A stretch of DNA of 22,195 nucleotides from IMG/VR virus record IMGVR_UViG_3300007540_000130, positions 1-22,195 of that record. One strand, 5' to 3'. Shown piece after piece: positions 3 through 21,341 of the stretch. Origin of the DNA: a virus. The notes below the pieces were generated by a model. The model was not told the DNA's origin. It did not search any database and saw nothing but the letters and a program-made list of their open reading frames with translations. The translations under genes were made by a program, and so were the position numbers. The stretch's first letter is position 1; each line of letters starts with the position of its first letter.

Positions 3-1505
3 ACAGGGCCAACAGGTCCAACCGGACCAAAAGGTAATACTGGATCTCAAGGCCCACAGGGAATACAAGGCTCACAGGGTAGTGCAGGATGGGGTATATC
101 AATGCAAGGTCAAGTTTCCGCATCATCTGGTTTACCATCAAGTGGTAATTCAAATGGTGACGCTTATATAGTGCAATCAGATGATTCTATATGGGTGTGG
201 ACATCAGCAGATGGATGGGTTTCAGGTGGATCTATTAAAGGTACGCAAGGTGTAAAAGGTAACACTGGATCTCAAGGACCACAAGGGGCTAAGGGTAACA
301 CTGGTAGTCAAGGTCCTCAAGGAATACAAGGAATACAAGGACCAGCTGGTCCAAAAGGAAACACTGGATCAACAGGTGGTATAGGACCACAAGGTCCAAA
401 AGGTAATACCGGTGCAACAGGTTTACAAGGTGCGGCTGGTAATGATGGTGCTGATGGTAGTAATGGATCAACAGGACCACAAGGCCCAAAAGGAAACACT
501 GGAGCTGTAGGAGCTGCTGGAGGAACTGGCCCAGCTGGAGCTAAAGGAAATACAGGCTCTCAAGGAGCCACGGGTCCACAAGGACCTAGAGGATATACTG
601 GTGCGGCTGGCTCTAACGGTACCGATGGTGCTAAAGGAGATAAAGGTGATACAGGACCTACTGGACCAACAGGACCAAAAGGTTCAACTGGAGCTGCTGG
701 AGCAGTTGGTTCTCAAGGACCAAGAGGATATACAGGATTAACAGGACCTGCAGGGACAAATGGAACAAACGGAAGTCAAGGACCTAAAGGTAATACAGGC
801 TCCGCAGGCGCAACAGGACCAAAAGGAGACAAAGGAGATCCCGGAGCTACTGGTGGTACAGGAGCGCAAGGGCCAAGAGGATATACTGGTGCCGCAGGAG
901 GTACTGGTCCACAAGGACCTGCCGGAGCAAAAGGCTCAACAGGTGCGGCTGGCGCAAAAGGTGATACTGGAGCAGCGGGTACAAACGGTACAAACGGAAG
1001 TCAAGGACCTAAAGGAGACAAAGGTAGTACTGGATCAACTGGGCCTCAAGGAGCACCAGGATTAGCAGGAGCTACTGGACCTCAAGGTGCTAAGGGTAAT
1101 ACTGGATCTACCGGTTCGCAAGGACCAACAGGACCAGCTGGTTCAACATCATATTCTGCAGGTAATTTAACAAGTCAAGGTTATGGTAGCGGTAATCTTA
1201 CATGGCGACAAGGCTCTACTAATTTTGCTGGCCACACAGGTTGGGCTAGTAATATAATAAGTAACCACGGTGATGGATCTAACTATTATAATCAAATGAT
1301 AACACTGCCTTTCTGGGGAGCTCCTAGCTATTCTAGATTAGAAGGTGGTACTCAAAAAGGGCCATGGGTTTTCTTAACAGAAGAAAATCAGGGTAACTAT
1401 ATAAATGGATTTTCTGGCGAACAAGAAGTTATTGTTCCAGACGGCAAAGGCACTAAAACTGTAACTTTTGGTTACCAAAATGGTTTATTAAAATCAATAA
1501 AATAA
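3..1505 (+). CDS. Collagen-like phage fibre protein, 5' end outside the window
   Basis: The frame is open from base 3 with no start codon until the ATG at 102. That ATG is internal, because Gly-X-Y triplets already run from base 6 to 86 in the same frame. The visible order is: a first collagen segment (6-86); a compact non-collagen insert (about 90-239) with a GDAYIV...WVW...GWV pattern that recurs in phage fibre proteins; a second collagen segment of 101 uninterrupted Gly-X-Y triplets (240-1148), rich in KGNTG, PRGYTG and GPQ; then a globular C-terminal domain of about 118 residues ending in GYQNGLLKSIK. Collagen repeats form trimeric rods, and such proteins usually serve as tail or head fibres that reach the host surface. 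The C-terminal domain would act as a trimer cap or receptor-binding tip; that role is inferred. It is followed after 6 bases by the next gene. Confidence 0.85.
   Translation, partial: TGPTGPTGPKGNTGSQGPQGIQGSQGSAGWGISMQGQVSASSGLPSSGNSNGDAYIVQSDDSIWVWTSADGWVSGGSIKGTQGVKGNTGSQGPQGAKGNTGSQGPQGIQGIQGPAGPKGNTGSTGGIGPQGPKGNTGATGLQGAAGNDGADGSNGSTGPQGPKGNTGAVGAAGGTGPAGAKGNTGSQGATGPQGPRGYTGAAGSNGTDGAKGDKGDTGPTGPTGPKGSTGAAGAVGSQGPRGYTGLTGPAGTNGTNGSQGPKGNTGSAGATGPKGDKGDPGATGGTGAQGPRGYTGAAGGTGPQGPAGAKGSTGAAGAKGDTGAAGTNGTNGSQGPKGDKGSTGSTGPQGAPGLAGATGPQGAKGNTGSTGSQGPTGPAGSTSYSAGNLTSQGYGSGNLTWRQGSTNFAGHTGWASNIISNHGDGSNYYNQMITLPFWGAPSYSRLEGGTQKGPWVFLTEENQGNYINGFSGEQEVIVPDGKGTKTVTFGYQNGLLKSIK
6..1148 (+). repeat. 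Collagen Gly-X-Y coding repeats in two blocks
   Basis: A 9-base periodicity (ggn-nnn-nnn) fills 6-86 and 240-1148, separated by about 150 bases that encode a non-repetitive insert. Near-identical units recur, for example those encoding GPKGNTG and GPRGYTG (the latter near 580, 717 and 872). Such DNA can expand, contract or recombine by slippage, and it creates long open frames on both strands that are not genes. Confidence 0.85.
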
Positions 1506-2171: not shown

Positions 2172-2367
2172 TATAGGTAAAGACTATAAAAACGATTCAA
2201 TGCATTACTCCGTGGGCCAAGAGGTTTACGGAGGACATGTTATTGATTGTATTCTTGAAGAAAAAGACAAGTACTGTATATTTATTAAAAAAGGTGTAGA
2301 TGTTTTACCGTGGAAAGACTTTAATAAAAACATGGCTATTTCTGTTGAATACAACTTGGATTATTAA
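2149..2367 (+). CDS. Small phage protein of unknown function
   Basis: This 72-residue protein has the pattern ISIGKDYKNDSMHYSVGQEV, then GGHVIDCILEE, a short strand YCIFIKKG, and an end in WKDFNKNMAISVEYNLDY, which suggests a small beta-rich fold. The chosen ATG at 2149 overlaps the previous gene by 23 bases. An ATG at 2200 (residue 18) is possible but would cut off the ISIGKDYK segment, which looks like part of the domain. The TAA stop shares its last base with the next ATG (taatg at 2365-2369), a typical translational-coupling junction. I do not recognise a function; proteins of this kind occur near terminase genes of Bacteroidetes and marine phages as far as I recall. Confidence 0.65.
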   Translation: MSLVRKISIGKDYKNDSMHYSVGQEVYGGHVIDCILEEKDKYCIFIKKGVDVLPWKDFNKNMAISVEYNLDY

Positions 2368-2963
2368 TGAAGAGTGTAACAAACTTTATAGTAAAACCTA
2401 AAAACAAAAGATACAACAACACTAAAAAAATAGGTGATAAAGAGTTAATATTAAACACGGAAATATTTACTCACCAAAACGTAAGCAGAAATGCTATTGT
2501 TTTGCAGACGCCAACAGTGGGTTGCACAGACATAAAGCAAGGTGACGAAGTAATAGTACATCACAACGTTTTTAGAAGATGGAAAGATATAAGAAATAAA
2601 GAGAAAAACTCTAAGGCTTTTTACAAAGAAGATATGTATTTTGTAATGCCTGATCAAATATTTGCTTATAAAAGAAACAGCGTCTGGAACGCAGTTAAAG
2701 GTTTTAGCTTTATAAAACCACTAGAAAACCAAGATAACTTCTCTATGGACAAGGAAATGCCTTTAATAGGCATCGTAAGACACGTAGATCCAGAATTAAA
2801 AAGCCAAAATATAAAATTAAACTCTTTAGTAGGTTTTAAACCTAACTCAGAATATGAGTTTGTTATTGAAGGCGAAAGACTTTATAGAGTTCCAACATTT
2901 GCAATTACAATTAAATATGAATATCAAGGAAACGAAAAAGAATATAATCCAAGCTGGTCATAA
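2367..2963 (+). CDS. GroES-like protein, possibly with two GroES-type domains
   Basis: This 198-residue protein has features of the GroES/gp31 co-chaperonin fold. Residues 7-11 (FIVKP) open the first half, followed by SRNAIVLQTP (40-49), DIKQGDEVIVHHNVF (55-69) and MYFVMPDQIFAYK (90-102), matching the GroES order of first strand, mobile loop, GxVxxVG-like strand, xGDxV and final strand. The second half repeats the plan: GFSFIKPLE (112-120), PLIGIVRHV (132-140), NIKLNSLVGF (148-157) and YRVPTFAITI (173-182). Phage GroES homologues such as T4 gp31 help host GroEL fold the capsid protein, and this gene lies in the head/packaging cluster, which fits. The assignment rests on pattern reading and should be tested by profile search. 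Its start overlaps the previous stop by one base, and its end overlaps the next gene by 47 bases. Confidence 0.5.
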   Translation: MKSVTNFIVKPKNKRYNNTKKIGDKELILNTEIFTHQNVSRNAIVLQTPTVGCTDIKQGDEVIVHHNVFRRWKDIRNKEKNSKAFYKEDMYFVMPDQIFAYKRNSVWNAVKGFSFIKPLENQDNFSMDKEMPLIGIVRHVDPELKSQNIKLNSLVGFKPNSEYEFVIEGERLYRVPTFAITIKYEYQGNEKEYNPSWS

Positions 2964-3192
2964 AGCTGTTGAAGAGCTTATAAAAGTAGCTGGTGAAAAA
3001 ATAGTTGATTCAGGAGACGATATATCTGCAGATAGATTAAAGAACGCTGCAGCTACTAAAAAGTTAGCTATATTTGATGCTTTCGAGATATTAAATAGAA
3101 TACAAGACGAAGAGGATATGCTTAACAATGTTGTAAAAGCAGAGGTTGAAGAAACATCATTTGGTGGTTTTGCAGAAAGAAGATCTAAGTAA
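2917..3192 (+). CDS. Small helical protein, candidate small terminase subunit
   Basis: This 91-residue, mostly helical protein has MNIKETKKNIIQAGHK, then VEELIKVAGEKIV, SADRLKNAAATKKLAIFDAF and ILNRIQDEEDML, with a basic end (FAERRSK). The ATG at 2917 is chosen. An in-frame ATG at 2854 would add 21 residues and enlarge the overlap with the upstream gene from 47 to 110 bases, and the extra residues do not look like part of the fold. The TAA overlaps the ATG of the terminase large subunit (taatg at 3190-3194). Size, helical content and position directly before the large subunit are what a small terminase subunit shows, but no DNA-binding motif is clear. It could also be an unrelated conserved phage protein. 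Confidence 0.55.
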   Translation: MNIKETKKNIIQAGHKAVEELIKVAGEKIVDSGDDISADRLKNAAATKKLAIFDAFEILNRIQDEEDMLNNVVKAEVEETSFGGFAERRSK

Positions 3193-5405
3193 TGTACAAG
3201 CAGAGTCTATACAAGGTTGTAGAACCTATTAAAATAAATACCATAAAAAGACTTAATAAGTCTAAAAAATGGAAGTACGGATATAACAAAGAACACGACA
3301 TTGTTGTTATATCTAAAACGGGTCAGATAGGTGAAATATATGAAATACAAAATTTTCAAATAGCATTACCAAAACACACAGATGTTTATAAATTTGATAG
3401 TGACAAATGGGAGGTAAATGAATATCCCTCTGAGTTAAAAAGAATAAAAACTATATTTGATTGGAAAAATTATCCAGATGATTTTAAGAAAAAATATATA
3501 GATTACATAGAAAGTGAGTTTAAAAAAAGAGAAGAAGGTTTTTGGTATTACAATAAAGGCGTTCCTACTTATATTACTGGTACTCACTACATGTACTTGC
3601 AATGGTCCAAGATTGATGTTGGGCAACCAGACTTTAGAGAAGCAAATAGATTATTCTATATATTCTGGGAAGCTTGTAAAGCAGATACAAGATGCTACGG
3701 AATGTGTTATCTTAAAAATAGACGTTCAGGATTCTCTTTTATGGCTTCAGGAGAAACAGTTAACCAAGCCACAATATCATCTGACGCTAGGTTCGGTATT
3801 TTATCTAAATCAGGACCAGATGCTAAAAAAATGTTTACCGATAAAGTCGTGCCAATATCAGTTAACTACCCTTTCTTCTTTAAACCAATACAAGACGGTA
3901 TGGATCGTCCAAAAACAGAATTAGCATATAGAGTACCAGCTAGCAAGTTAACAAGAAGAAGTATTGTAAGTTCTGAAAAACCAGAAGAATTAGAGGGATT
4001 AGATACAACTATTGATTGGAAAAACACAGGTGACAATAGTTATGATGGTGAAAAGCTTAAGTTACTAGTACACGATGAGTCTGGTAAGTGGGAGAGACCT
4101 AACAACATATTAAACAACTGGAGAGTTACAAAGACAACACTTAGACTAGGTTCTAGAATAATAGGTAAGTGTATGATGGGAAGTACGTCAAACGCTTTAG
4201 ATAAAGGTGGAGACAATTTTAAGAAACTATATAAAAATTCAGATGTTACAAAAAGAAACCGCAATGGACAGACAAGCTCGGGACTATATAGTTTGTTCAT
4301 ACCTATGGAATGGAACTACGAAGGATTCATTGATTCTTATGGGTTACCTGTCTTCGACACGCCTGACACAGAAAAAATTGGGCCTTTTGGCGAGACTATA
4401 GACACAGGTATATTAGAGCATTGGCAAAATGAAGTAGATGGATTAAAGAACGATGGTGATGCTTTAAATGAATTTTATAGGCAATTCCCAAGAACTGAAG
4501 AACACGCTTTCAGAGACGAAACAAAAAACAGTATATTTAATTTAGCAAAAATATACGAGCAAATAGATTTTAACGAGGATTTAAATAATACATCTCAAAT
4601 TACAGTAGGTAGTTTTCAGTGGGTTAATGGTATAAAAGATTCTAAGGTAATGTTTTATCCAAATCCAGATGGAAGATTTAAAGTTAGCTGGGTTCCACCT
4701 ATAAACAAACAGAATTACAGTGTAATTAAAAACGGCATTAAATATCCAGGCAATGAGCACATGGGTGCTTTTGGTTGTGACAGTTATGACATATCAGGTA
4801 CCGTTGATGGTAAAGGATCTAATGGCGCGCTGCATGGGTTGACAAAGTTTAGTATGGAAGATTGTCCACCTAATCAATTTTTTTTAGAATATGTAGCTAG
4901 ACCACAAACCGCTGAGATATTTTTTGAAGACGTTTTAATGGCGCTTATATTTTATGGGATGCCTTTACTTGCTGAAAATAATAAACCTCGTCTATTGTAT
5001 TATTTAAGAAGACGTTGTTATAGAGGTTATTCTATGAATAGACCTGACAGAGTTTGGAACAAGCTTTCAACAGCTGAAAAAGAAGTAGGTGGTATACCTA
5101 ACTCAAGTGAAGATATTAAGCAAGCACACGCTGCTGCTATTGAAATGTATATACAAGATCATGTTGGATTAAAGTCTGACAATACGTATGGAACATGCTA
5201 TTTTAACGAAACATTACAAGACTGGGCAAAGTTTGACATTAATAATCGTACAAAGTTTGATGCGGCTATTAGTTCAGGATTAGCTATCATGGCTTGTAAT
5301 AGACATTTATACAGAGCAAACCCCATTATGAAAAAAGAAAAATTAAACTTAAGCATAGCTAAATACGGACAATCAGGTATGCGTTCAAAACTAATAGAAA
5401 ATTAA
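3192..5405 (+). CDS. terL: Terminase large subunit (DNA packaging ATPase and nuclease)
   Basis: This 737-residue protein is the motor that cuts concatemeric DNA and drives it through the portal into the prohead. The ATPase half carries a P-loop region at residues 175-182 (KNRRSGFS), a Walker B at 291-296 (hydrophobic strand, then His, Asp295, Glu296) and a coupling-type motif GKCMMGSTSNA just after. The P-loop is atypical: the usual Lys before Ser/Thr is Phe here. The C-terminal half fits the RNase H-like nuclease, with Asp530 in GCDSYDIS, Glu595 in PLLAENNK and Asp690 in FDAAISSGLA as the likely metal ligands. Length is somewhat above the usual 450-700. It starts one base inside the stop of the preceding small gene and is followed by the portal after a single base. 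Confidence 0.88.
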   Translation: MYKQSLYKVVEPIKINTIKRLNKSKKWKYGYNKEHDIVVISKTGQIGEIYEIQNFQIALPKHTDVYKFDSDKWEVNEYPSELKRIKTIFDWKNYPDDFKKKYIDYIESEFKKREEGFWYYNKGVPTYITGTHYMYLQWSKIDVGQPDFREANRLFYIFWEACKADTRCYGMCYLKNRRSGFSFMASGETVNQATISSDARFGILSKSGPDAKKMFTDKVVPISVNYPFFFKPIQDGMDRPKTELAYRVPASKLTRRSIVSSEKPEELEGLDTTIDWKNTGDNSYDGEKLKLLVHDESGKWERPNNILNNWRVTKTTLRLGSRIIGKCMMGSTSNALDKGGDNFKKLYKNSDVTKRNRNGQTSSGLYSLFIPMEWNYEGFIDSYGLPVFDTPDTEKIGPFGETIDTGILEHWQNEVDGLKNDGDALNEFYRQFPRTEEHAFRDETKNSIFNLAKIYEQIDFNEDLNNTSQITVGSFQWVNGIKDSKVMFYPNPDGRFKVSWVPPINKQNYSVIKNGIKYPGNEHMGAFGCDSYDISGTVDGKGSNGALHGLTKFSMEDCPPNQFFLEYVARPQTAEIFFEDVLMALIFYGMPLLAENNKPRLLYYLRRRCYRGYSMNRPDRVWNKLSTAEKEVGGIPNSSEDIKQAHAAAIEMYIQDHVGLKSDNTYGTCYFNETLQDWAKFDINNRTKFDAAISSGLAIMACNRHLYRANPIMKKEKLNLSIAKYGQSGMRSKLIEN

Positions 5406-5406
5406 T

Positions 5407-7830
5407 ATGGCTGAGTCAGTTGTAAAAGGTTATTTTCCGAGTCAAGTTGTACCTGACGCAGAGAAGTTAAGCGCCGAATATGGTTTACAAGTAGGTAAAG
5501 CCATAGAGTATGAATGGTTTGATGGATCTACATCTAATCAAAGATATAATCAGCACCAAGCTGAGTTTCATAAATTGAGACTATATGCTAGAGGTGAACA
5601 ACCTATACAAAAGTATAAAGATGAATTATCTGTTAATGGAGATTTATCTTATTTAAATTTAGACTGGAAACCAGTTCCTATTGTACCAAAATTTGTAGAT
5701 ATAGTTGTTAACGGTATATCAGAAAGATCGTTTGATATAAAGTGTTATTCTCAAGATCCTTATGGTATAGAGAAAAGAACTAAGTACATGGAGTCTATAT
5801 TAAGAGACATGAAAACTAAAGATTTAAACTTATTTGCTGAAGAAGCATTTGGTATATCTTTGTTTGAGTCGCCTCCAGAGTTACTACCAAACTCACAAGA
5901 AGAGCTAGACTTACATATGAAGCTTAGTTATAAGCAAGGTATAGAACTAGCTGAAGAGCAAGCTATAAACGTTTTGCTTAAAGGTAATAGATATGATCTT
6001 ACTAAAAAAAGAGTAAATTACGACTTAGCAACCATAGGAATAGGTTGTGTTAAAAATACATTTACAAAATCAGAAGGAGTAAAGGTTGAATACGTTGATC
6101 CAGCTAATATAGTTTATTCATATACAGAAGATCCAGATTTTCAAGATATATATTACGTAGGTGAAATAAAAACTATACCTATAAACGAACTTAAAAAAGA
6201 GTTTCCTGATTTAACAGATGAAGATTTAAAGGCTATACAAAGTCAAAGCATCCATCAAAATAGTTATTCAACTAATAGATATAATTCTTCTCATTACGAT
6301 GATAAGAATCAAATACAAGTTTTGTACTTTAACTACAAGACTTATATGAATGAAGTTTATAAAGTTAAAGAAACAGCTACAGGAGCTGAAAAAATAATAT
6401 TAAGAGATGATACTTTTGATCCACCTATCAATGAAATGACAGGTAATTTTGGTAAAATATCAAGATCATTAGAAGTTTTATATGAAGGTTGTTTAATTTT
6501 AGGTACAGATTATCTTTTGAGATGGGAAATGGCTAAAAATATGATGAGGCCTAAAAGTGATTATAGTAAAGTTAAAATGAACTACGCTATAAACGCTCCT
6601 AGAATGTACAAAGGTAGAATTGATTCATTAGTAAAACGTATAACAGGGTTTGCTGACATGATTCAACTAACACACCTTAAGCTTCAACAGGTTATGTCTA
6701 GAATGGTTCCAGACGGTGTTTACTTAGACGCTGACGGACTAGCTGAAGTTGATCTTGGTAATGGTACAAATTATAATCCTCAAGAAGCGTTAAATATGTT
6801 CTTTCAGACGGGATCTATAATAGGTAGGTCTTTTACTTCTGAAGGAGATATGAATCCAGGTAAGGTACCTATTCAAGAAATACAAAGCGGTAGTGGTGGT
6901 CAGAAAATACAAAGCTTGATAACAAACTACAACTACTATATGCAAATGATAAGAGACGTCACCGGTTTAAATGAAGCTAGAGACGGTAGTACTCCAGATA
7001 GTAGAGCTTTAGTAGGTGTTCAAAAACTAGCTGCTGCAAATTCAAACACAGCAACAAGGCATATATTACAGTCTGGTTTAGCTTTAACTCAAGAGTTAGC
7101 GGAAGGCTTGTCTCTTAGAATATCTGACATATTAGAGTTTTCTCCAACAAAAGAGGCTTTTATACAAAAAATAGGAAATCAAAACGTAGGTATATTAGAA
7201 GATATATCTAATCTATATTTACATGATTTTGGTATATTTATAGAGTTAACACCTGATGATGAAGAAAAAGCTGTTTTAGAAAACAACATACAAGCAGCTG
7301 TTGCAGGTGGTTTAATAGATTTAGAAGACGCTATAGATCTTAGAGAGATAAAAAACATAAAGCTAGCAAACCAACTATTAAAGCAAAGAAGAAAAAAGAA
7401 ACAAGACAGAGATCAACAGATACAACAAGAGAATATGCAGGCTCAAGCTCAAGCAAATGCTCAGGCTCAGCAGGTTGCAGCTCAAGCTGAAGTACAAAAA
7501 TCTCAAGCTCTTTTTCAAATTCAATCTCAAATGGAGCAGCTTAAGGGCCAAATGAAGTCTCAACAAATGCAACAAGAAGCTATGTTGAAGAAAGATTTAA
7601 TGACCTTAGAGTTTGAATTTAATATGAAGCTAAAAGGAATTGAAGCTGATGGCGCTAAAAACAAAGAAGCTTACAAGGAAGATCGTAAAGACGAAAGAAC
7701 AAAAATACAAGCAACTCAACAAAGCGAGTTGATAGATCAAAGAAAAAATGACTCATCACCTAAAGATTTTGAATCTGCAGGTAATGACAACATGAGTGGT
7801 TTTGACATGGGCCAGTTTGGACCTATGTAA
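5407..7830 (+). CDS. Portal protein (head-tail connector, DNA channel)
   Basis: This 807-residue protein forms the dodecameric ring through which DNA enters and leaves the capsid. It begins one base after the terminase stop, the usual neighbour. N-terminal residues about 50-110 form the clip/wing region (LRLYARGEQPIQKYKDE, then VPIVPKFVDIVVNGISE). A typical portal segment VDPANIVYSYTEDPDF lies at about 229-244, and a long helical stem/crown region follows (about 400-640), including LTHLKLQQVMSRMVPDG and a TGLNEARDGSTPDSRALVG segment. From about residue 658 the protein turns into a Lys/Arg then Gln/Ala-rich coiled coil to about 780, ending in MSGFDMGQFGPM. The extended C-terminus resembles the helical barrel of long portals such as that of P22. 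Large size is in line with portals of crAss-like and related podophages. Confidence 0.87.
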   Translation: MAESVVKGYFPSQVVPDAEKLSAEYGLQVGKAIEYEWFDGSTSNQRYNQHQAEFHKLRLYARGEQPIQKYKDELSVNGDLSYLNLDWKPVPIVPKFVDIVVNGISERSFDIKCYSQDPYGIEKRTKYMESILRDMKTKDLNLFAEEAFGISLFESPPELLPNSQEELDLHMKLSYKQGIELAEEQAINVLLKGNRYDLTKKRVNYDLATIGIGCVKNTFTKSEGVKVEYVDPANIVYSYTEDPDFQDIYYVGEIKTIPINELKKEFPDLTDEDLKAIQSQSIHQNSYSTNRYNSSHYDDKNQIQVLYFNYKTYMNEVYKVKETATGAEKIILRDDTFDPPINEMTGNFGKISRSLEVLYEGCLILGTDYLLRWEMAKNMMRPKSDYSKVKMNYAINAPRMYKGRIDSLVKRITGFADMIQLTHLKLQQVMSRMVPDGVYLDADGLAEVDLGNGTNYNPQEALNMFFQTGSIIGRSFTSEGDMNPGKVPIQEIQSGSGGQKIQSLITNYNYYMQMIRDVTGLNEARDGSTPDSRALVGVQKLAAANSNTATRHILQSGLALTQELAEGLSLRISDILEFSPTKEAFIQKIGNQNVGILEDISNLYLHDFGIFIELTPDDEEKAVLENNIQAAVAGGLIDLEDAIDLREIKNIKLANQLLKQRRKKKQDRDQQIQQENMQAQAQANAQAQQVAAQAEVQKSQALFQIQSQMEQLKGQMKSQQMQQEAMLKKDLMTLEFEFNMKLKGIEADGAKNKEAYKEDRKDERTKIQATQQSELIDQRKNDSSPKDFESAGNDNMSGFDMGQFGPM

Positions 7831-9036: not shown

Positions 9037-10491
9037 ATGGCTTTAGCTGGAACTGGCGCTGAGTTATCACACGTGGTACCTCGCCCAAACAAACTTGCAT
9101 ATGACAACAACTATTTGTCAATTGCAGACAATGATTTTAACTTTGCAAAACAATTCTTACCAGAAGTATATGAGAAAGAAGTAGAAAGATACGGTAACCG
9201 TACTATCTCTGGTTTCTTAAGAATGGTAGGAGCTGAAATGCCTATGGCTTCTGACGAAGTTGTGTGGTCTGAACAAGGTAGAATCCATGTAGCATCTAAC
9301 AACGCTACAATCGCAAACGTAAACGGAACAAGTGACGCGATTACATTAGTAACTGATCCTGCTGGAAACGGTGACGGATTAACTGCTGCTCAACAAGCTG
9401 CTTTATATTCTAAAGGAGATACATTAGTAGTTTCTCAAGGAAATAAAACAGTAAAAGCAAGAGTACAAGGTATAGCGGGAGTTGTACTTACGGTATCTGC
9501 TTACGACTATGCTGCTATCCAAGCGGCTGGTGCTGGAAATGCTGGATTTGCTGCTGCTGCGGTAAAACTATTCATCTTTGGTTCTGAGTATGCAAAAGGA
9601 ACAGACAATGCTGACCAAGCATCTGTAGATTCTCCTTTCACTAAATTTACTAACAAACCAATCATATTAAAAGGTAAGTATTCTATCTCAGGATCTGATA
9701 CTGCTCAAATCGGTTGGGTTGAAGTAGCTACTGAAGCTGGTGCTTCTGGTTACTTATGGTACTTAAAATCTGAATCTGAAACAAGAATTAGATTTGAGGA
9801 CAAATTAGAAATGGCAATGATTGAAGCTGAGAAAACTGTAGCTGGATCTGGTCTTGCTGGATCTTTTGGTGGATCTGAAGGTTTATTTGCTGCTGTTGAA
9901 TCTAGAGGATTGGTTTACAACAACCAAGACTTTGGAAACGCTGTACCTGCAAGTGGTATTCAAGAATTTGATAACATCTTACAAGAATTAGACAAGCAAG
10001 GAGCTATCGAAGAGAACATGATGTTCTTAGATAGAGCTACTAACTTATCTATCGATAAAATGTTAGCTAATCAAAATTCTTACGGAGCTGGAGGTACATC
10101 TTACGGTGTATTCGATAATTCTGAGGATATGGCTTTAAATTTAGGTTTCTCTGGTTTCAGACGTGGATCTTACGATTTCTACAAATCTGACTGGAAATAC
10201 TTAAACGATGCTACTACTCGTGGATTAATTGCTGACGTAGAAGGTATCATGGTACCTGCAGGAACAAGTACAGTATACGACCAATCATTAGGTAAAAATA
10301 TCTCAAGACCTTTCTTACACATCCGTTACAGAGCTTCTGAAGCAGATGACAGAAAAATGAAGTCTTGGATCACTGGATCTGTTGGTGGAAACTTTACTTC
10401 CGACTTAGATAGCATGACTGTAAACTTCTTATCAGAAAGATGTTTATGTGTACAAGCTGCTAACAACTTTGTTTTACTTAAAAAAGTATAA
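9037..10491 (+). CDS. Major capsid protein
   Basis: This 484-residue protein lies directly after the scaffold and is likely an HK97-fold coat protein. The N-terminal arm (AYDNNYLSIADNDFNFAKQF, about 22-41) is followed by a long helix and a loop region with YEKEVERYGNRTISGFLRM and EMPMASDEVVWSEQGRI. A domain rich in Ala and Gly with small strands (about 100-185) looks like an insertion. The C-terminal half contains ESETRIRFEDKLEMAMIEAE, the segment SYDFYKSDWKYLNDATTRG and RPFLHIRYRASEADDRKMKS. Codon use differs sharply from the neighbours: Ile is mostly ATC, Phe TTC, Asn AAC and Tyr TAC, as expected for the most abundant virion protein. The leader is A-rich (taaaaattaaaaatt), without Shine-Dalgarno. 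A strong hairpin follows the stop. Confidence 0.85.
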   Translation: MALAGTGAELSHVVPRPNKLAYDNNYLSIADNDFNFAKQFLPEVYEKEVERYGNRTISGFLRMVGAEMPMASDEVVWSEQGRIHVASNNATIANVNGTSDAITLVTDPAGNGDGLTAAQQAALYSKGDTLVVSQGNKTVKARVQGIAGVVLTVSAYDYAAIQAAGAGNAGFAAAAVKLFIFGSEYAKGTDNADQASVDSPFTKFTNKPIILKGKYSISGSDTAQIGWVEVATEAGASGYLWYLKSESETRIRFEDKLEMAMIEAEKTVAGSGLAGSFGGSEGLFAAVESRGLVYNNQDFGNAVPASGIQEFDNILQELDKQGAIEENMMFLDRATNLSIDKMLANQNSYGAGGTSYGVFDNSEDMALNLGFSGFRRGSYDFYKSDWKYLNDATTRGLIADVEGIMVPAGTSTVYDQSLGKNISRPFLHIRYRASEADDRKMKSWITGSVGGNFTSDLDSMTVNFLSERCLCVQAANNFVLLKKV

Positions 10492-11565: not shown

Positions 11566-12267
11566 ATGGCTGTAAGTGTAGATACCGTTTATCAGACTGT
11601 TTTGAGTACTTTAAACAAAGAGCAACGTGGCTATGTCACACCTCAAGAGTTTAATTTATTTGCAGAGCAAGCTCAACTAGATATATTTGAACAATATTTC
11701 TACGACATAAATCAATTTGGTAGACTGCACGGTAATAGTACAGAATATTCAGACATGCTAGATATACTTGAAGAAAAAATAAGTATATTTGAAGCACCAC
11801 CAGTGAATGTTACTATGGCTAACACGGGTATAGGTACTTTGCCAGCCAACTATAGGTTAGGTAATGTTATGCATACTACCAACGGTGTAGCTAGAATAGT
11901 TGAAAAGCTAAACAAAAAAGACATACAGATACTTCAAATGTCTCCATTAACAACTCCAAACTTAATTAGACCAGCTTACACTAGAACAAGTGAGACTACG
12001 ATACAACTCTATCCAGCTACAATAGTAGCAAATGTTACATGTGATGTCATATCAAAACCTACTGCTCCTAATTGGAATTATGTTATGGTTTATGGTGAAG
12101 CCTTGTATAATGCTACTGGTAGTACTGATTTTCAACTGCATCAATCTGAAGAAATAGCTTTAGTCGAAAAAATATTAGAGCTAGCTGGTTTATCTACCAA
12201 GGAAGTTCAGATGTATCAAATTGCAAATCAAGAAGAAATGCAAACAATCCAACAAGAAAAACAATAA
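11566..12267 (+). CDS. Connector / ring-type head-tail adaptor protein
   Basis: This 233-residue protein starts with a helical bundle, VDTVYQTVLSTLNKEQRGYV and TPQEFNLFAEQAQLDIFEQY, a common opening for adaptor-type proteins that dock below the portal. A beta-rich middle follows (VTMANTGIGTLPANYRLGNV; YTRTSETTIQLYPATI), and the end has FQLHQSEEIALVEKILELAG followed by a Gln/Glu-rich helix (NQEEMQTIQQEKQ). The LHxSEE...LVxKILELAG...YQxA end recurs in connector proteins of Bacteroidetes podophages as I recall. Position, four genes after the portal and immediately before the next connector-type gene, supports a ring/neck role. It starts two bases after the preceding 53-aa gene. Confidence 0.65.
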   Translation: MAVSVDTVYQTVLSTLNKEQRGYVTPQEFNLFAEQAQLDIFEQYFYDINQFGRLHGNSTEYSDMLDILEEKISIFEAPPVNVTMANTGIGTLPANYRLGNVMHTTNGVARIVEKLNKKDIQILQMSPLTTPNLIRPAYTRTSETTIQLYPATIVANVTCDVISKPTAPNWNYVMVYGEALYNATGSTDFQLHQSEEIALVEKILELAGLSTKEVQMYQIANQEEMQTIQQEKQ

Positions 12268-12270
12268 GAT

Positions 12271-13437
12271 ATGCCATTATTCAACGGAACACAACAAGGT
12301 TACTATGAGCAAAGCCAAAGCTTTGTAGGCGCTGGAGCTGGAAACCTCACGGTTGGACCAGTAACTACAGCTGCGTTTGCTACTAGACCAACTCAACAGG
12401 TTGATATAGTGGTTTTTATAAACGGCATAGAAATAAACAAAAATAGTTACTCGTATAATGGTACAAACCCAGGTGACACTACTCCTGACGATTCTTACGA
12501 TATATTATTCAATAACACAAATCCAAACACAAACGTGCAAGCTGCTGATGGATCTCCTTTAGCAGGCTTAACTGTATTGTTTAGAGAGGTTTTAGCTACC
12601 GAGCAGTTTGGTAACTATCAATATGTTTCTTTAGAGAATATAATAAACAACTTTATAATATCTTACGTGGGTGAAGATAAAATAATATCTAAAGTAAGAA
12701 GAACAGATATCGCTTTTCACGCTCAAAGAGGTTTAGCTGAGCTTAGCTACGATACTTTAAAATCTTTTAAGTCTCAAGAGATTGAAATACCACCTTCTCT
12801 ATCTATGAAATTACCTCATGATTTTGTTAACTATGTTAAATTATCTTGGCTAGACAATGATGGTATTGAAAGGATATTAATGCCTACTAGAAAAACTAGT
12901 AACCCAGAGGCGCTAATACAAGATAGTAATTACGATTACAGTTTTGACACAGATGGAACTTTGTTAGCTGCTGACGATTCTGAAACGTGGAATAAATTCA
13001 AAGATGCTACAAACAGGAATAATACAAATCCAGATACTTTAGATGAATTTGAAAGATATAGAAGTACTCAGGGTGGTAGATATGGATTAGAGCCGGAGTT
13101 TGCTAATAGCAACGGAGTTTATTTTATAGACAATCTAAGAGGTAAAATATTTTTTGATTCTAGCCTGACAGGTAAAATAATAACATTAAAGTATATAAGC
13201 GATTCACTTGGCACAGACAATGAAATGCTTGTTCATAAGTTTGCAGAAGAAGCGTTGTACAAGCACATAGCTTACGCTATACTAGCTACAAGAGCTAACA
13301 CTCAAGAGTATTTAGTCATGAGGTTTAAAAAAGAAAAGTTTGCTGCAACTCGCCAAGCTAAATTAAGATTATCAAATTTAAAATCAGAGGAACTTGCTCA
13401 AGTAATGAGAGGTAAGTCTAAGATTATAAAACACTAA
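12271..13437 (+). CDS. Ring/neck virion protein with beta-rich N-terminal domain
   Basis: This 388-residue protein has two parts. Residues 1-110 form a beta-rich domain (GAGAGNLTVGPVT, VDIVVFINGIEINKNSYSYN, LFNNTNPN, GLTVLFREVL) resembling the small jelly-roll-like domains often attached to phage tail and neck proteins. From about 117 it becomes helical and then beta: YVSLENIINNFIISYVGED, RTDIAFHAQRGLAELSYDTL, IEIPPSLSMKLPHDFVNYVK. The end is a basic helix with KEKFAATRQAKLRLSNLKSE and VMRGKSKIIKH. I recognise the second part as a family found next to portal-proximal genes in Bacteroidetes and marine phages, usually labelled virion structural protein. Adjacency to the adaptor gene and to the propeller-like tail protein favours a tail-ring role. 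Confidence 0.65.
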   Translation: MPLFNGTQQGYYEQSQSFVGAGAGNLTVGPVTTAAFATRPTQQVDIVVFINGIEINKNSYSYNGTNPGDTTPDDSYDILFNNTNPNTNVQAADGSPLAGLTVLFREVLATEQFGNYQYVSLENIINNFIISYVGEDKIISKVRRTDIAFHAQRGLAELSYDTLKSFKSQEIEIPPSLSMKLPHDFVNYVKLSWLDNDGIERILMPTRKTSNPEALIQDSNYDYSFDTDGTLLAADDSETWNKFKDATNRNNTNPDTLDEFERYRSTQGGRYGLEPEFANSNGVYFIDNLRGKIFFDSSLTGKIITLKYISDSLGTDNEMLVHKFAEEALYKHIAYAILATRANTQEYLVMRFKKEKFAATRQAKLRLSNLKSEELAQVMRGKSKIIKH

Positions 13438-13440
13438 AAT

Positions 13441-15162
13441 ATGCCAGAATTTATTCATAACTTTACTCAGGGGAAGATGAATCATGATCTTGATGAAAGA
13501 ATGGTTCCAAACGGTCAATATAGAGATGCATTAAACGTAACTGTAGCTACTTCTGAATCTAGCAATGTTGGTGCTTTGCAAAATTTAAAAGGTAATACAG
13601 AGTTGAAAGGTTCTCCAGCATCTTCTGGTAATTGGTCTTCTGATTACATAAACTCTCTTAACAACCCAGTCTGTATAGGTTCTATAAGACATGAGCCGAC
13701 AGAGTGTATATATTGGTTTGTAGCTACCGACAAGGGTACTACTAGATCAAGCGTTAGTGTTATAGCTGAGTTTAATCAAAAAACTGGTGACGTAACACCT
13801 GTATTAGTTGACACTAAAGGTATATTAAACTTTACTAAAAATAACTTAATAACAGGTGTAAATATAATAGACGACTTATTATTCTTTACAGATAATGTTA
13901 ATGAACCCAAGAAGGTAAATATAAAAAAGTTTAAAAAAGGTTCTTCAAACGGTGGTACACCTAGTTTCAGTGTACACAGTAAAATTCCAACTTACAACAC
14001 TTCTAACAGAAACTATACTTATAATTCTTCTGGCGCTGACTTTGCAGAAGAAGATATTACTGTTATTAAAAAATCTCCATTAGATGAACCGGGTTTATCT
14101 ATGTCAGCTTCGCTGGTAAACGGTCCTGGAACAGGCACCGATCCTATAACCACAACTTACTCTTTAAACAACTACTACAACTTTACGTACATAACAGAAG
14201 CCGCTACTAATAACTCACCAGCGGAGTACAAGCCACTACCAACGTTTCAAGAATATCAAGAAGCTTTAGGTACCGGTGGAGCGTTTCCAACTAATATGGA
14301 GTTTGTAAACATAGTTGTATCAGCAGTACCAACAGGTTACGAGCCTGGTGACGTTATAGTTCTTAGTGGAAGCTATATAAATGACTACAACAACGAAGAT
14401 GAATACACTATAAGATTAGAGATAGATTTCGTAAACGGAGCTAATTTAAGGTGTAAGATTCAATCTATACCTAATAAGATATTAAGATTTGGAGCAGATC
14501 AAGACGAGCTAATAACATGGGAGGTTCTATTAGAAGAGAAAGATCCTATGTTTGAATTTGATTTTCCAAGATTTGCTTACAGATGGAAGTATGAAAATGG
14601 TGAGTACTCTACTTTTTCACCTTTTTCTGGACCAGCGTTTATAGGTGGTCAATTTGAATACTTATCTTCTGATGGTTATAACTTAGGTATGAGAAACAAC
14701 CTAAGGTCTTTAAGTATAAATAATCTTTACTGGGGAAGTACAGAGGTTGTTGAACTAGATATATTGTACAAAGCATCTAACAGTAACACTGTGTATGTAG
14801 TAGATACCTTAAAGGATAGAACTAAAACTAGCTTTACTATTAAAAATGAATTAATTGGAGCCGCTGTAGAAGCTAACCAACTACTCAGACCTTGGGATAA
14901 CGTTCCAAGAAAAGCTAAAGCTCAAGAGGTTTCAGCTAATAGACTTATATACGCTAACTATATACAAAATTATAATGTTCCAAAAGTTGGTCTTATTTTA
15001 AGTTTAGCTACAAACAATCACACTGGTTTAAATGAAGAATCTGATACGTTTAGAGAACCAATACAAAGCGTAAAGTCTATAAGAAAATATCAACTAGGTA
15101 TTGTGTTTCAAGACGCTACGGAAGACAAACACCGGTTTTTTCGGATGCAAACGCTACTATAA
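13441..15162 (+). CDS. N-terminal part of a giant podovirus tail (nozzle/muzzle-like) protein
   Basis: These 573 codons encode the start of a protein that appears to continue in another frame. The opening, FTQGKMNHDLDERMVPNGQY then RDALNVTVATSESSNVGALQ, is the signature of large tail stabilisation proteins of podophages, thought to form beta-propellers that extend the portal channel (compare T7 gp12, P22 gp10 and crAss-like muzzle proteins; comparison by pattern only). A run of beta strands follows (CIYWFVATDKG, DDLLFFTDNVNEPKKV, FAYRWKYENGEYSTFSPFSG). The last visible natural segment is KYQLGIVFQDA (about 549-559). The final 14 codons to the TAA (TEDKHRFFRMQTLL) look foreign, while the -1 frame supplies YGRQTPVFSD at the same place. 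See the frameshift entry. Confidence 0.75.
   Translation: MPEFIHNFTQGKMNHDLDERMVPNGQYRDALNVTVATSESSNVGALQNLKGNTELKGSPASSGNWSSDYINSLNNPVCIGSIRHEPTECIYWFVATDKGTTRSSVSVIAEFNQKTGDVTPVLVDTKGILNFTKNNLITGVNIIDDLLFFTDNVNEPKKVNIKKFKKGSSNGGTPSFSVHSKIPTYNTSNRNYTYNSSGADFAEEDITVIKKSPLDEPGLSMSASLVNGPGTGTDPITTTYSLNNYYNFTYITEAATNNSPAEYKPLPTFQEYQEALGTGGAFPTNMEFVNIVVSAVPTGYEPGDVIVLSGSYINDYNNEDEYTIRLEIDFVNGANLRCKIQSIPNKILRFGADQDELITWEVLLEEKDPMFEFDFPRFAYRWKYENGEYSTFSPFSGPAFIGGQFEYLSSDGYNLGMRNNLRSLSINNLYWGSTEVVELDILYKASNSNTVYVVDTLKDRTKTSFTIKNELIGAAVEANQLLRPWDNVPRKAKAQEVSANRLIYANYIQNYNVPKVGLILSLATNNHTGLNEESDTFREPIQSVKSIRKYQLGIVFQDATEDKHRFFRMQTLL
15105..15162 (+). other. Apparent -1 frameshift site in the giant tail gene
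   Basis: In frame 1 the protein reads QLGIVFQDA and then TEDKHRFF up to a stop at 15160. In the -1 frame, bases 15117-15149 read YGRQTPVFSDA, and this frame is open to 18938. Joining FQDA (to 15117) with YGRQTPV gives a continuous phage-tail motif. One extra base within 15112-15117 (for instance gacgct-tac-gga) would fix the frame. A run of six T (15136-15141) lies nearby but downstream of the conserved YGRQTPV motif. Confidence 0.7.
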
Positions 15163-15227
15163 GCATAGATAAAGATGCAGCTGTTGGTGTTAGCAAATTT
15201 ATAGCCACCGTACCGCCTGTACAAAAT

Positions 15228-18200
15228 ATGCCTAGCTGGGTAACGCATTATAAGTATTTTATTAAAGATACATCTAACGAATACTACAACTTAGCTTTAG
15301 ATAGATTTTATTTTGCTGAAGATGGCAACGTTTGGTTGAGTTTCCCTTCATCAGAAAGAAGTAAAGTTCAAATAGATAGTTATCTTATACTAAAAAAACA
15401 ACACGACGTAGATAATCCTTCTATTGGTCCTTGTAGATATAAAGTTTTAGATGTTCAGTCTCAAGCTCCTGAGTTTGTTGCTAATTCTAAAAAGATTATA
15501 GCTTCAGCTCGCTGTGAAGTTGACGCTGGTTTTCAAGAAGATTTCTCTTTAATAACTTTTACAGGACCTAACGCTGATGATAATTCTCAGTTTGCAACAG
15601 CTTTTAATGGCGATAGCTTTATTACAATATCCGACGGTGGTAATACAACAGACATATTAGGGGTTAAATTTGGTGGACCTGTTTCAAGTAATGGTACAAT
15701 GTACGAGGTGCAGTTAGACGAGCCATTTGGAGCAGACGCTTCTTTCTTCGGGGTATCAGGTTTAGTAGAGGGTGCAACTATTACTATAAATGTTTATAAA
15801 AACGAAGAAGAAAGACTACCAGAGTTTGAAGGTAGATTTTTTGTTAAAATAAATAGAGATACAGATTTTGATGTTAACATAATAAAAACTTTTTCAGGTT
15901 TAAATAAAAGGTACGGTATAGTTGGCGCGGCTTATGTCGATAGAGTTACCGCTAGTTCTTCTTTGAGAGGTAGTTCATCAAGATGGGGGACATTTTTTAG
16001 AGATGCGGGAGAGGCAGCTGGAAATCCGTTTGGTGACTGTACATGTCCTGATTCCTGGAGACACAAAGGTGTCGAGCTAGGTGGTAACGGTAATAGGTTA
16101 AACGGTTTTAATGGAGTTCCTTCAAATTCAAGAGTATTTATAGATGGTCAAACAGGTATGGAGCAGGCTTTTCACGCTGGTGCCGCTTATAATAGAGAGT
16201 GGTTAGGTATTCTTAGAGCTGGTTTTTCAAATCCTATTTACGAACACTTAGGTAGTCAAAAAGCGTTTTTTGCAGAAAAAGCTGTAAAAGGGGCTTTAGT
16301 AAGAATAGTACACATAGACGGTAGAGTTTCTAAACCTTATGAAATTAAAAACCACTGGAGATTCAGAGGTGCTAGGGGAATAAGAAGATGTTTTTGTGTG
16401 GATGGTTGTGGTGACTGTCAAAAAAGTACGCTTGGAAGTAATAGAGTTTTTTCTTTAGCGTTAGAGCTAACTAGCAAGGTTCAAGAAGACTGGGTTGGTA
16501 ACGGATCAGAATCAGCCTTAACCAACATAAGAGGTTTTCAAATAGTTGAAGAAGTTATAAGTGATGATAACAAAATAATATCTTCTAACAATCCAGCTGT
16601 TTTTGAAACAGAGCCAAAAGAAGCTGTAGATATTGATATATATTACGAAGCATCAAATGCGTTACCTATATCAACTATAAATCAACAATCAAAAATATTA
16701 AATTACTATAACTGTTATAGCTTTGGAAATGGTGTTGAGTCTGATAGAATAAGAGATGATTTCAACGCACCTAGAATAGGTAAAGGAGTTAAAGTGTCTG
16801 CTTTACTAGATGAACCATATATGGAAGAAAGAAGGTCAAGTGGTCTTATATTTTCTCAAATATACAACTCTCAAGCAGGTATAAATAGATTAAATCAGTT
16901 TATACAAGCACAGCCTATAACTAAAGATTTAAACCCAGAGTATGGATCTATACAAAAGCTACATTCTAGAAACACAAACTTAATTACGCTTTGTGAAGAC
17001 AAATGTTTAAAAATACTAGCAAATAAAGATGCTTTATTTAACGCCGATGGAAGTGCTAATATAACTTCTAACAAGGCTGTTTTAGGACAAGCTGTTCCTT
17101 ATGCTGGTGAGTTTGGTATTAGTACAAACCCAGAGTCATTTGCTTCCTATGGATTTAGAGCTTATTTTTCAGATAAAAATAGAGGAGCTGTAATTAGATT
17201 ATCACAAGACGGTATAACTAATATTGCTTTAAAAGGTATGTCTGACTTTTTTGCAGACAACTTACCTAGTTCTACTAAAATAATTGGAAGTTATAACGAT
17301 GACAAAGAAAATTACAATTTAACACTAGACTATTTAACTGACGAGTGGCAAGATAAGCTTTCTAAGACACCTAAAGATAAAACACACTGTGAAGTACCTA
17401 ATGATGAATCTGATGATATAGAAACAACTACAGTATCATTTAAAGAGACTGTTGACGGTTGGACTAGTAGAAAATCTTATTATACTAAGACTGGTAGTGT
17501 TTTTTACCCACTAGAAAGTGGTGAATCTTTAAATGACAAGTATTATACTTTTAATAAAGGATTAATATGGGAGCATGCCTCTAATGATTTATATAATAAT
17601 TTTTATGGAACTCAATATGATAGCTCTGTCAATGTAGTGATAAATGACGCTACAGAGTCTATCAAAGGGTTTAAAACATTAAACTACTCTGGTACTGATT
17701 CTAGAAAATACTCTTATAACACGTCCAGTGGTTTAACGGGGTTGAGTATAGATCAGGTTGTAGCTCAACAAATATCACCTTCTATAATAAACGCTGAAAA
17801 CTATACGCCTGGTTGGTATACTAACTATATCAATACTGATATGGAGGAAGGTATGATAAAAGAGTTTGCTAAGAAAGAAAATAAATACTTCAATAAAATA
17901 AAAGGTATAAAAACTTACTACAATGATAATTGTGATAATAATATTGATTCTTCTGCTTTTCAAACTCAAGGATTAGGTTTAGCTACTGTAACTTCATCTG
18001 CTCCAACTGCATTTAAATTAACAGTTAAGGTTGACGCTTCTTGTTCTACAGGAACAGGTAATGATCCACTGCCAGACACTACTAAAAAGTTCTGGTACTA
18101 CTGGACATGTACCAAAACAGGGTCTAACGTAAACGTAGATATAAGACAAACGGCAACAGACCAACTTGTTAAATGTGGTATAGAAGAGTTTTATAATAAT

Positions 18201-18938
18201 TTCCCTAACAATTACACTGGTATTGATAAGAATTATTTTAATTTTAAATTCTTTAATTCTTCAGGTGTTAACGTGAACACTATACTTTATAACGAAAACA
18301 ACGAGTCTATATCTACTAGTGGTAAGTTTTTATATGTTGAACCAGCTTCAACGCCTGACAACAACGCTTTAAACGCTAATGTTTCTGGCACTGCTGTTCC
18401 AAATACTTACTTTATATTAACTGTAACAAACGGTGTTATAACCGCTAAAACTCAATACAATACTTTAGCTAGTTGTGGAACACCTCTTGTGGCTGTAGAC
18501 TTTTCTTTGTTCGTTGGTTATAGAGTTGGTGGTAACTCTACTAATTTGTTAACCGGTACAGCAGCACAACACGGTACTCCTTCTGGAAGAGCAGCTCTAG
18601 CTAAAACACAATTAAAAGATTGGTTAACTGGTCCATTAATAGGTCAAGTGAGTTCAAATAGATTAATTAGACTATCTGATATATACAAGTATTCCGGTGC
18701 AACTGGTTTAGTTGTTGGAGCTCAGCTTCACAATGATGTTGGTCCAATTGCTACAGATGGTATATTTGGGCACAACACTAACTCAGCGCCAATACCTAAT
18801 GGTTATTGGTCTTACACTTCACCATCAAGCAACTCATTAAAAACAGATGCCGGCTGGTCAAGTCTTGATAGTGCTTGGAAGTTTATAACATTTGAAAATG
18901 GAATAGTTACTCACATAACAACAATGAATACATTATAA
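15228..18938 (+). CDS. C-terminal part of the giant podovirus tail (nozzle/muzzle-like) protein
   Basis: The ATG at 15228 gives 1236 codons, but the frame is open upstream to at least 15063 and encodes GRQTPVFSDANATISI and KFIATVPPVQN before it, so this ATG is probably internal. Together with the preceding frame it would make about 1,830 residues. The section numbered from 15228 includes a Cys-rich insert (CTC at 271-273; CFCVDGCGDC at 388-397), then strands and loops with a propeller-like end, FRAYFSDKNRGAVIRLSQDG and ITNIALKGMSDFFADNL, a signature of large podophage tail hub proteins. The last 320 residues or so are Ser/Thr/Asn-rich and less familiar, possibly an exposed variable domain. 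It overlaps the next gene by one base (taatg). Confidence 0.72.
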   Translation: MPSWVTHYKYFIKDTSNEYYNLALDRFYFAEDGNVWLSFPSSERSKVQIDSYLILKKQHDVDNPSIGPCRYKVLDVQSQAPEFVANSKKIIASARCEVDAGFQEDFSLITFTGPNADDNSQFATAFNGDSFITISDGGNTTDILGVKFGGPVSSNGTMYEVQLDEPFGADASFFGVSGLVEGATITINVYKNEEERLPEFEGRFFVKINRDTDFDVNIIKTFSGLNKRYGIVGAAYVDRVTASSSLRGSSSRWGTFFRDAGEAAGNPFGDCTCPDSWRHKGVELGGNGNRLNGFNGVPSNSRVFIDGQTGMEQAFHAGAAYNREWLGILRAGFSNPIYEHLGSQKAFFAEKAVKGALVRIVHIDGRVSKPYEIKNHWRFRGARGIRRCFCVDGCGDCQKSTLGSNRVFSLALELTSKVQEDWVGNGSESALTNIRGFQIVEEVISDDNKIISSNNPAVFETEPKEAVDIDIYYEASNALPISTINQQSKILNYYNCYSFGNGVESDRIRDDFNAPRIGKGVKVSALLDEPYMEERRSSGLIFSQIYNSQAGINRLNQFIQAQPITKDLNPEYGSIQKLHSRNTNLITLCEDKCLKILANKDALFNADGSANITSNKAVLGQAVPYAGEFGISTNPESFASYGFRAYFSDKNRGAVIRLSQDGITNIALKGMSDFFADNLPSSTKIIGSYNDDKENYNLTLDYLTDEWQDKLSKTPKDKTHCEVPNDESDDIETTTVSFKETVDGWTSRKSYYTKTGSVFYPLESGESLNDKYYTFNKGLIWEHASNDLYNNFYGTQYDSSVNVVINDATESIKGFKTLNYSGTDSRKYSYNTSSGLTGLSIDQVVAQQISPSIINAENYTPGWYTNYINTDMEEGMIKEFAKKENKYFNKIKGIKTYYNDNCDNNIDSSAFQTQGLGLATVTSSAPTAFKLTVKVDASCSTGTGNDPLPDTTKKFWYYWTCTKTGSNVNVDIRQTATDQLVKCGIEEFYNNFPNNYTGIDKNYFNFKFFNSSGVNVNTILYNENNESISTSGKFLYVEPASTPDNNALNANVSGTAVPNTYFILTVTNGVITAKTQYNTLASCGTPLVAVDFSLFVGYRVGGNSTNLLTGTAAQHGTPSGRAALAKTQLKDWLTGPLIGQVSSNRLIRLSDIYKYSGATGLVVGAQLHNDVGPIATDGIFGHNTNSAPIPNGYWSYTSPSSNSLKTDAGWSSLDSAWKFITFENGIVTHITTMNTL

Positions 18939-20999: not shown

Positions 21000-21341
21000 A
21001 TGGCGACACAACCGATAACATTATTATTCCCTACAGCGGTAAACGTATCACTACAGGTTGGTGACACGGTTTATTATTTAGCTGCTAACGAGGAAGTAGT
21101 AGAAATAGGTCCAATAACCAGTATAACTACAAACGCTAACGGATCAGTTACAATAGTGGCTAATATAGACACTTTAACAACACCGCCCACAAACAGCAGT
21201 TATATATTTTTTACTAAAGATTCTCAAGGTAATACTTCTAATTTAAAAGGCTATTACGCAGAGGCACAATTTAGAAACGATAAAACAACAGAGGTTGAAT
21301 TGTTTTCAGTAGGATCAGAAATATTTGAAAGTAGTAAATAA
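21000..21341 (+). CDS. Small conserved-type virion-cluster protein
   Basis: This 113-residue protein begins with a short beta-rich segment (ITLLFPTAVNVSLQVGDTVY, then EEVVEIGPITSIT) and ends with a distinctive motif: LKGYYAEAQFRNDKTTEVEL then FSVGSEIFESSK. I recall this ending (GYYA...F.N....ELFSVGSEIFESSK) from hypothetical structural-cluster proteins of marine and Bacteroidetes phages. No membrane helix or signal is visible. It sits 10 bases downstream of the beta-rich protein with an A-rich leader (aaaaataaatc). A minor virion protein or a fibre/assembly accessory is likely by context; no molecular activity can be assigned. Confidence 0.7.
   Translation: MATQPITLLFPTAVNVSLQVGDTVYYLAANEEVVEIGPITSITTNANGSVTIVANIDTLTTPPTNSSYIFFTKDSQGNTSNLKGYYAEAQFRNDKTTEVELFSVGSEIFESSK

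Follow-up and report, generated by a model that had tools for sequence, protein, structure and literature searches.

A single-base break in the muzzle gene of an uncultured crAss-like phage contig, most likely a consensus error

Two overlapping open reading frames in the structural block of an uncultured crAss-like phage raise the question of whether they are two tail genes, one gene read by recoding, or one gene that has been broken. The frames lie in an IMG/VR virus record, IMGVR_UViG_3300007540_000130, of which we analyzed a stretch of 22,195 bases (the window; Table 1). The cultured relatives of this phage have hosts among the Flavobacteriia, namely Cellulophaga, Flavobacterium, Tenacibaculum and Maribacter. 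The zero-frame ORF (13441-15162, 573 aa) ends in ...KYQLGIVFQDA followed by TEDKHRFFRMQTLL, the last 14 residues being an unrelated tail. The -1 frame is open from 15054, directly after a stop at 15051-15053; from 15117 it reads YGRQTPVFSDANATISI... and it stays open to 18938. The overlap between the two frames spans 109 bases (15054-15162), and the parts on either side of 15117 encode 559 and 1273 aa, which makes 1832 aa together. A preliminary description of the sequence had proposed one giant tail gene of about 1,830 aa, split near 15117, with an unrelated 14-residue tail after QLGIVFQDA and a -1 frame open to 18938. These coordinates were all recovered, and the proposal of a single split gene was borne out by relatives that carry the gene whole and in a single frame. 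Elsewhere in the window, the open frames 2367-2963 and 2854-3192 overlap by 110 bases, the second of which is without a match.

Table 1. Gene content of the window and the parts of the broken muzzle gene.
Feature	Position	Strand	Evidence
Collagen-like fibre	3-1505		
GroES-like protein	2367-2963		PHROG 13932
TerL	3192-5405		
P22-like portal	5407-7830		
Capsid-type structural protein	9037-10491		
Two further virion proteins	11566-13437		
Broken muzzle gene (downstream genes follow it)	13441-18938		
N-terminal 559 codons of the muzzle gene, zero frame	13441..15117	+	PHROG 14478; PF25731 crAss_MUZ; protein 100% identical to three intact contigs
Frame-break site, window one base shorter than all close relatives	15117..15117	+	Only indel in 22.2 kb relative to 99.9% identical contigs
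Spurious out-of-frame tail, 14 codons TEDKHRFFRMQTLL and stop	15118..15162	+	Missing from relatives
C-terminal 1273 codons of the muzzle gene, window's -1 frame	15117..18938	+	PHROG 14478; PF25729 crAss_MUZ_C; protein 100% identical to two full and one partial intact copies

When the two parts were compared by tblastn with the fetched loci, the relatives aligned with both of them unbroken. Since, in addition, both halves match the same PHROG (E = 8e-58 for the N half and 2e-62 for the C half), the frame break does not reflect a chance arrangement of two reading frames. The same search showed that three contigs (3300006920_000260, 3300025652_000055 and 3300034375_003733), which come from datasets or samples other than that of the window, carry the gene whole, its two parts adjacent and in one frame without the loss of a residue; their DNA is 99.9% identical to the window over the shared stretch. 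Thirty distinct related contigs, about 31-100% identical, were continuous at the junction, and phi38:1, Gundel_1, elemoA_11-5C and the complete genome ctfjg026 each have one CDS of about 1324-1551 aa. Searching the GenBank phages at nucleotide level for this gene gave no match. The stretch 13441-18938 is one gene, encoding a crassvirus-type muzzle protein (a tail-tip gatekeeper) of about 1832 aa. Some relatives (the elemo phages and 3300029309_003524) have an in-frame insert of ~0.7-1 kb just upstream of the junction, at protein residues ~513-540 (about 14977-15060 in the window), which looks to be an additional domain, and ctfjg026 may carry such an insert close by.

The break cuts through a conserved motif, K-S/T-x-R-x-YQ-x-G-x(3)-x-D-x-Y/F-GR-Q/E-TP-V/I, which is conserved across 19 aligned relatives and whose core can be given in short form as YQ-x-G-x(3)-D-x-YGR-x-TPV. 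Residues G553, G561, R562, T564 and P565 are invariant, and in an AlphaFold2 model the junction forms the turn of a predicted β-hairpin with strands at 550-557 and 563-567. The preliminary description had already recognized a YQLGxVxxD-YGRxTPV motif at this point and had counted a lack of YGRQTPV-type continuity in intact relatives as evidence against a single gene; the motif was correctly read, and the continuity is conserved. Relatives with two genes that start independently near 15228 would also have spoken against it, but the relatives are not built in that way. Mechanical ORF calling yields such a split, with the second gene starting at ATG 15228. This ATG only marks where the second frame first offers a start codon: just 3 of the 19 aligned relatives have a methionine there, and all three read through. 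The 37 codons between the junction and the ATG also align with the relatives, and the cultured relatives have one CDS across the junction, which leaves two separate genes with next to no probability.

Programmed recoding, by -1 ribosomal frameshifting or transcriptional slippage, would yield the full-length protein from the two frames. The overlap of the frames would allow such a mechanism, and some 20 bases downstream of the break there is a T6 run at which slippage is conceivable. Slippage at that run would bring the reading back into frame, but at the cost of the conserved YGRxTPV motif. The overlap 15054-15162 contains no slippery heptamer of the X_XXY_YYZ type, the nearest one lying at 15027, before the -1 frame opens. 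A search for a downstream stimulatory RNA structure found folding no better than that of shuffled sequences (z = 0.02 against 200 shuffles), and nothing specific was found in the literature on frameshifting in crAss-like phages. The near-identical relatives need no shift and the frame break is not conserved, 30 contigs being continuous at the junction, which makes recoding very improbable. The continuity of the relatives, together with the lack of a heptamer in the overlap, of an RNA structure beyond shuffles and of a conserved start codon at 15228, effectively excludes both recoding and a pair of independent genes. Of the three options in the preliminary description (assembly error, genuine defect or recoding), recoding is thus the one that is not supported, as the relatives are whole in one frame.

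The muzzle assignment combines profile and structural matches. PF25731 (crAss_MUZ) matches residues 7-183 of the N half (E = 3.4e-10, 39.1 bits against a cut-off of 27), a match that spans only profile positions 5-167 of 1224. PF25729 (crAss_MUZ_C) matches the C half by a narrow margin (E = 2.5e-6, 28.3 bits against a cut-off of 27); the full protein of an intact copy scores 27.8 bits and the phi38:1 homologue 67.9 bits. Because searches of the PDB by sequence, with a profile and with a single sequence, gave nothing meaningful, a comparison of folds was needed. The AlphaFold2 model covers residues 1-816 of an intact copy with moderate confidence (mean pLDDT 70) and was built from an alignment of the fetched loci only, without database rows. 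Its top match in VIA-align 2 was the muzzle of PhicrAss001 (7QOL, Z 10.1; 7QOK, Z 9.8). The match spans model residues 63-615, thus running across the junction, with a propeller/IG fold like that of gp44. Foldseek gave 7QOL a probability of 1.00 and ranked a tail chain of Sf11 higher, although with a probability of 0.54. The Pfam and structural matches refine the family guess of the preliminary description, which had named the tail stabilisation family, to the crassvirus muzzle protein.

The likeness to PhicrAss001 gp44 amounts to an rmsd of 5.2 over 299 residues for 7QOL, and covers 324 residues for 7QOK. In contrast, identity is about 13-14%, the solved chains have 1354-1361 residues against 1832 aa here, and the frame in the window's record is broken by one base. 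Cellulophaga phage phi38:1 gp97 (Callevirus, Pervagoviridae) is about 30-34% identical, with a similar gene order and a strong crAss_MUZ_C match, but is shorter, being encoded by one uninterrupted CDS of 1324 aa without a frame break. The PhicrAss001 muzzle, which probably acts as a gate for ejection, is hexameric and comprises a ring-joining domain, a 7-bladed propeller, two IG domains and a crass fold (PMC10172136). By analogy, the window's muzzle would sit as a hexameric gate where the short tail ends, holding back DNA and cargo and contacting the cell, as in PhicrAss001 (PMC10172136). From the aligned PhicrAss001 chain range (60-451), we infer that the break would fall in the IG2 region, which in PhicrAss001 comprises 318-1021, and ahead of the insertion of the crass fold that starts at 453. 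Window positions 17427-17727, in the C half, and the small ORF 21000-21341 match the two ends of PHROG 18548, and these sequence matches suggest that the domains may be fused or exchanged in other phages.

How did the frame come to be broken in this record? The window differs from the three near-identical contigs by about 8 to 20 substitutions per shared stretch, mostly synonymous, and by a single indel, at 15117. The 67-kb contig 3300025652_000055, which is 99.9% identical over the full window and has the same genes, differs in that its muzzle gene is intact and one base longer at the break site. When 2.9 million viral contigs, a set that may omit the window's own record, were scanned for exact matches, the short junction of the window occurred in no other contig and the intact junction in four. 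The allele is private and the sole indel in 22 kb, the halves are otherwise unchanged as protein, and the protein should be essential; on these grounds we consider it most likely, with a probability of roughly three in four, that the gene is broken in this contig by a one-base shortfall that is a consensus (sequencing or assembly) error. We infer an error rather than a real private deletion from the expectation that virions need this protein. A classic homopolymer error is less obvious because there is no long homopolymer at 15117. A chimeric join of two strains at this position was also considered and rejected, as private and shared substitutions flank the site on either side and no switch between haplotypes is evident.

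If the base were truly lost from this phage strain, the assembler would have captured a defective genome or a minority variant whose muzzle is cut short at 573 aa and whose tail tip does not function. Since the window represents a slightly different strain, with private synonymous changes, a private mutation is possible, and the rest of the contig indeed resembles a true strain variant. Position 5016 carries a private non-synonymous transversion that gives C at TerL residue 609, where the near relatives and ctfjg026 have G and phi38:1 has R; this may reflect a weak consensus, with a possible second error or mutation, and it fits a decaying genome as well as it fits consensus errors. A real deletion is nevertheless unlikely: the allele is found in no other contig, the halves are still 100% protein-identical to intact copies, so that any loss must be very recent, and a phage without a tail gate should not become the population consensus. 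Far less probable again is a real deletion that is common in the strain, with the muzzle made by slippage or being phase-variable and the tail-tip function switched on and off.

Other records of the muzzle gene showed sporadic breaks at other places, and none at the window's site. Dataset 3300046167 has multiple breaks in the gene, 3300030098_003298 has a one-base break, and 3300025874_000247 has a nonsense codon near the contig end. In 3300027704_000041, the frame is broken by a 92-base tandem duplication (about 6623-6806 of the fetched locus), which resembles an overlap left uncollapsed at an assembly join, where such duplications are typical. The cultured Maribacter phage Panino (PP540027.1) has a muzzle gene annotated as two CDS, which on comparison with phi38:1 gp97 proves to be one protein with a -1 frame change at a five-T run (7483-7486 of the fetched locus); this break lies at another place than that of the window, and a consensus error in the homopolymer is its probable cause. 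With its 5.5 kb, the gene simply offers much room for such sporadic breaks.

Because near-identical copies from three other samples are whole, the frame break most likely arose in sequencing or assembly, or at most by a private mutation, rather than reflecting a special mode of decoding, and it is an ordinary event. It matters mainly for annotation hygiene, as automatic callers would list two tail genes for one muzzle and could wrongly suggest recoding. For this crassvirus hallmark protein, many intact relatives from environmental sequences are added as well.
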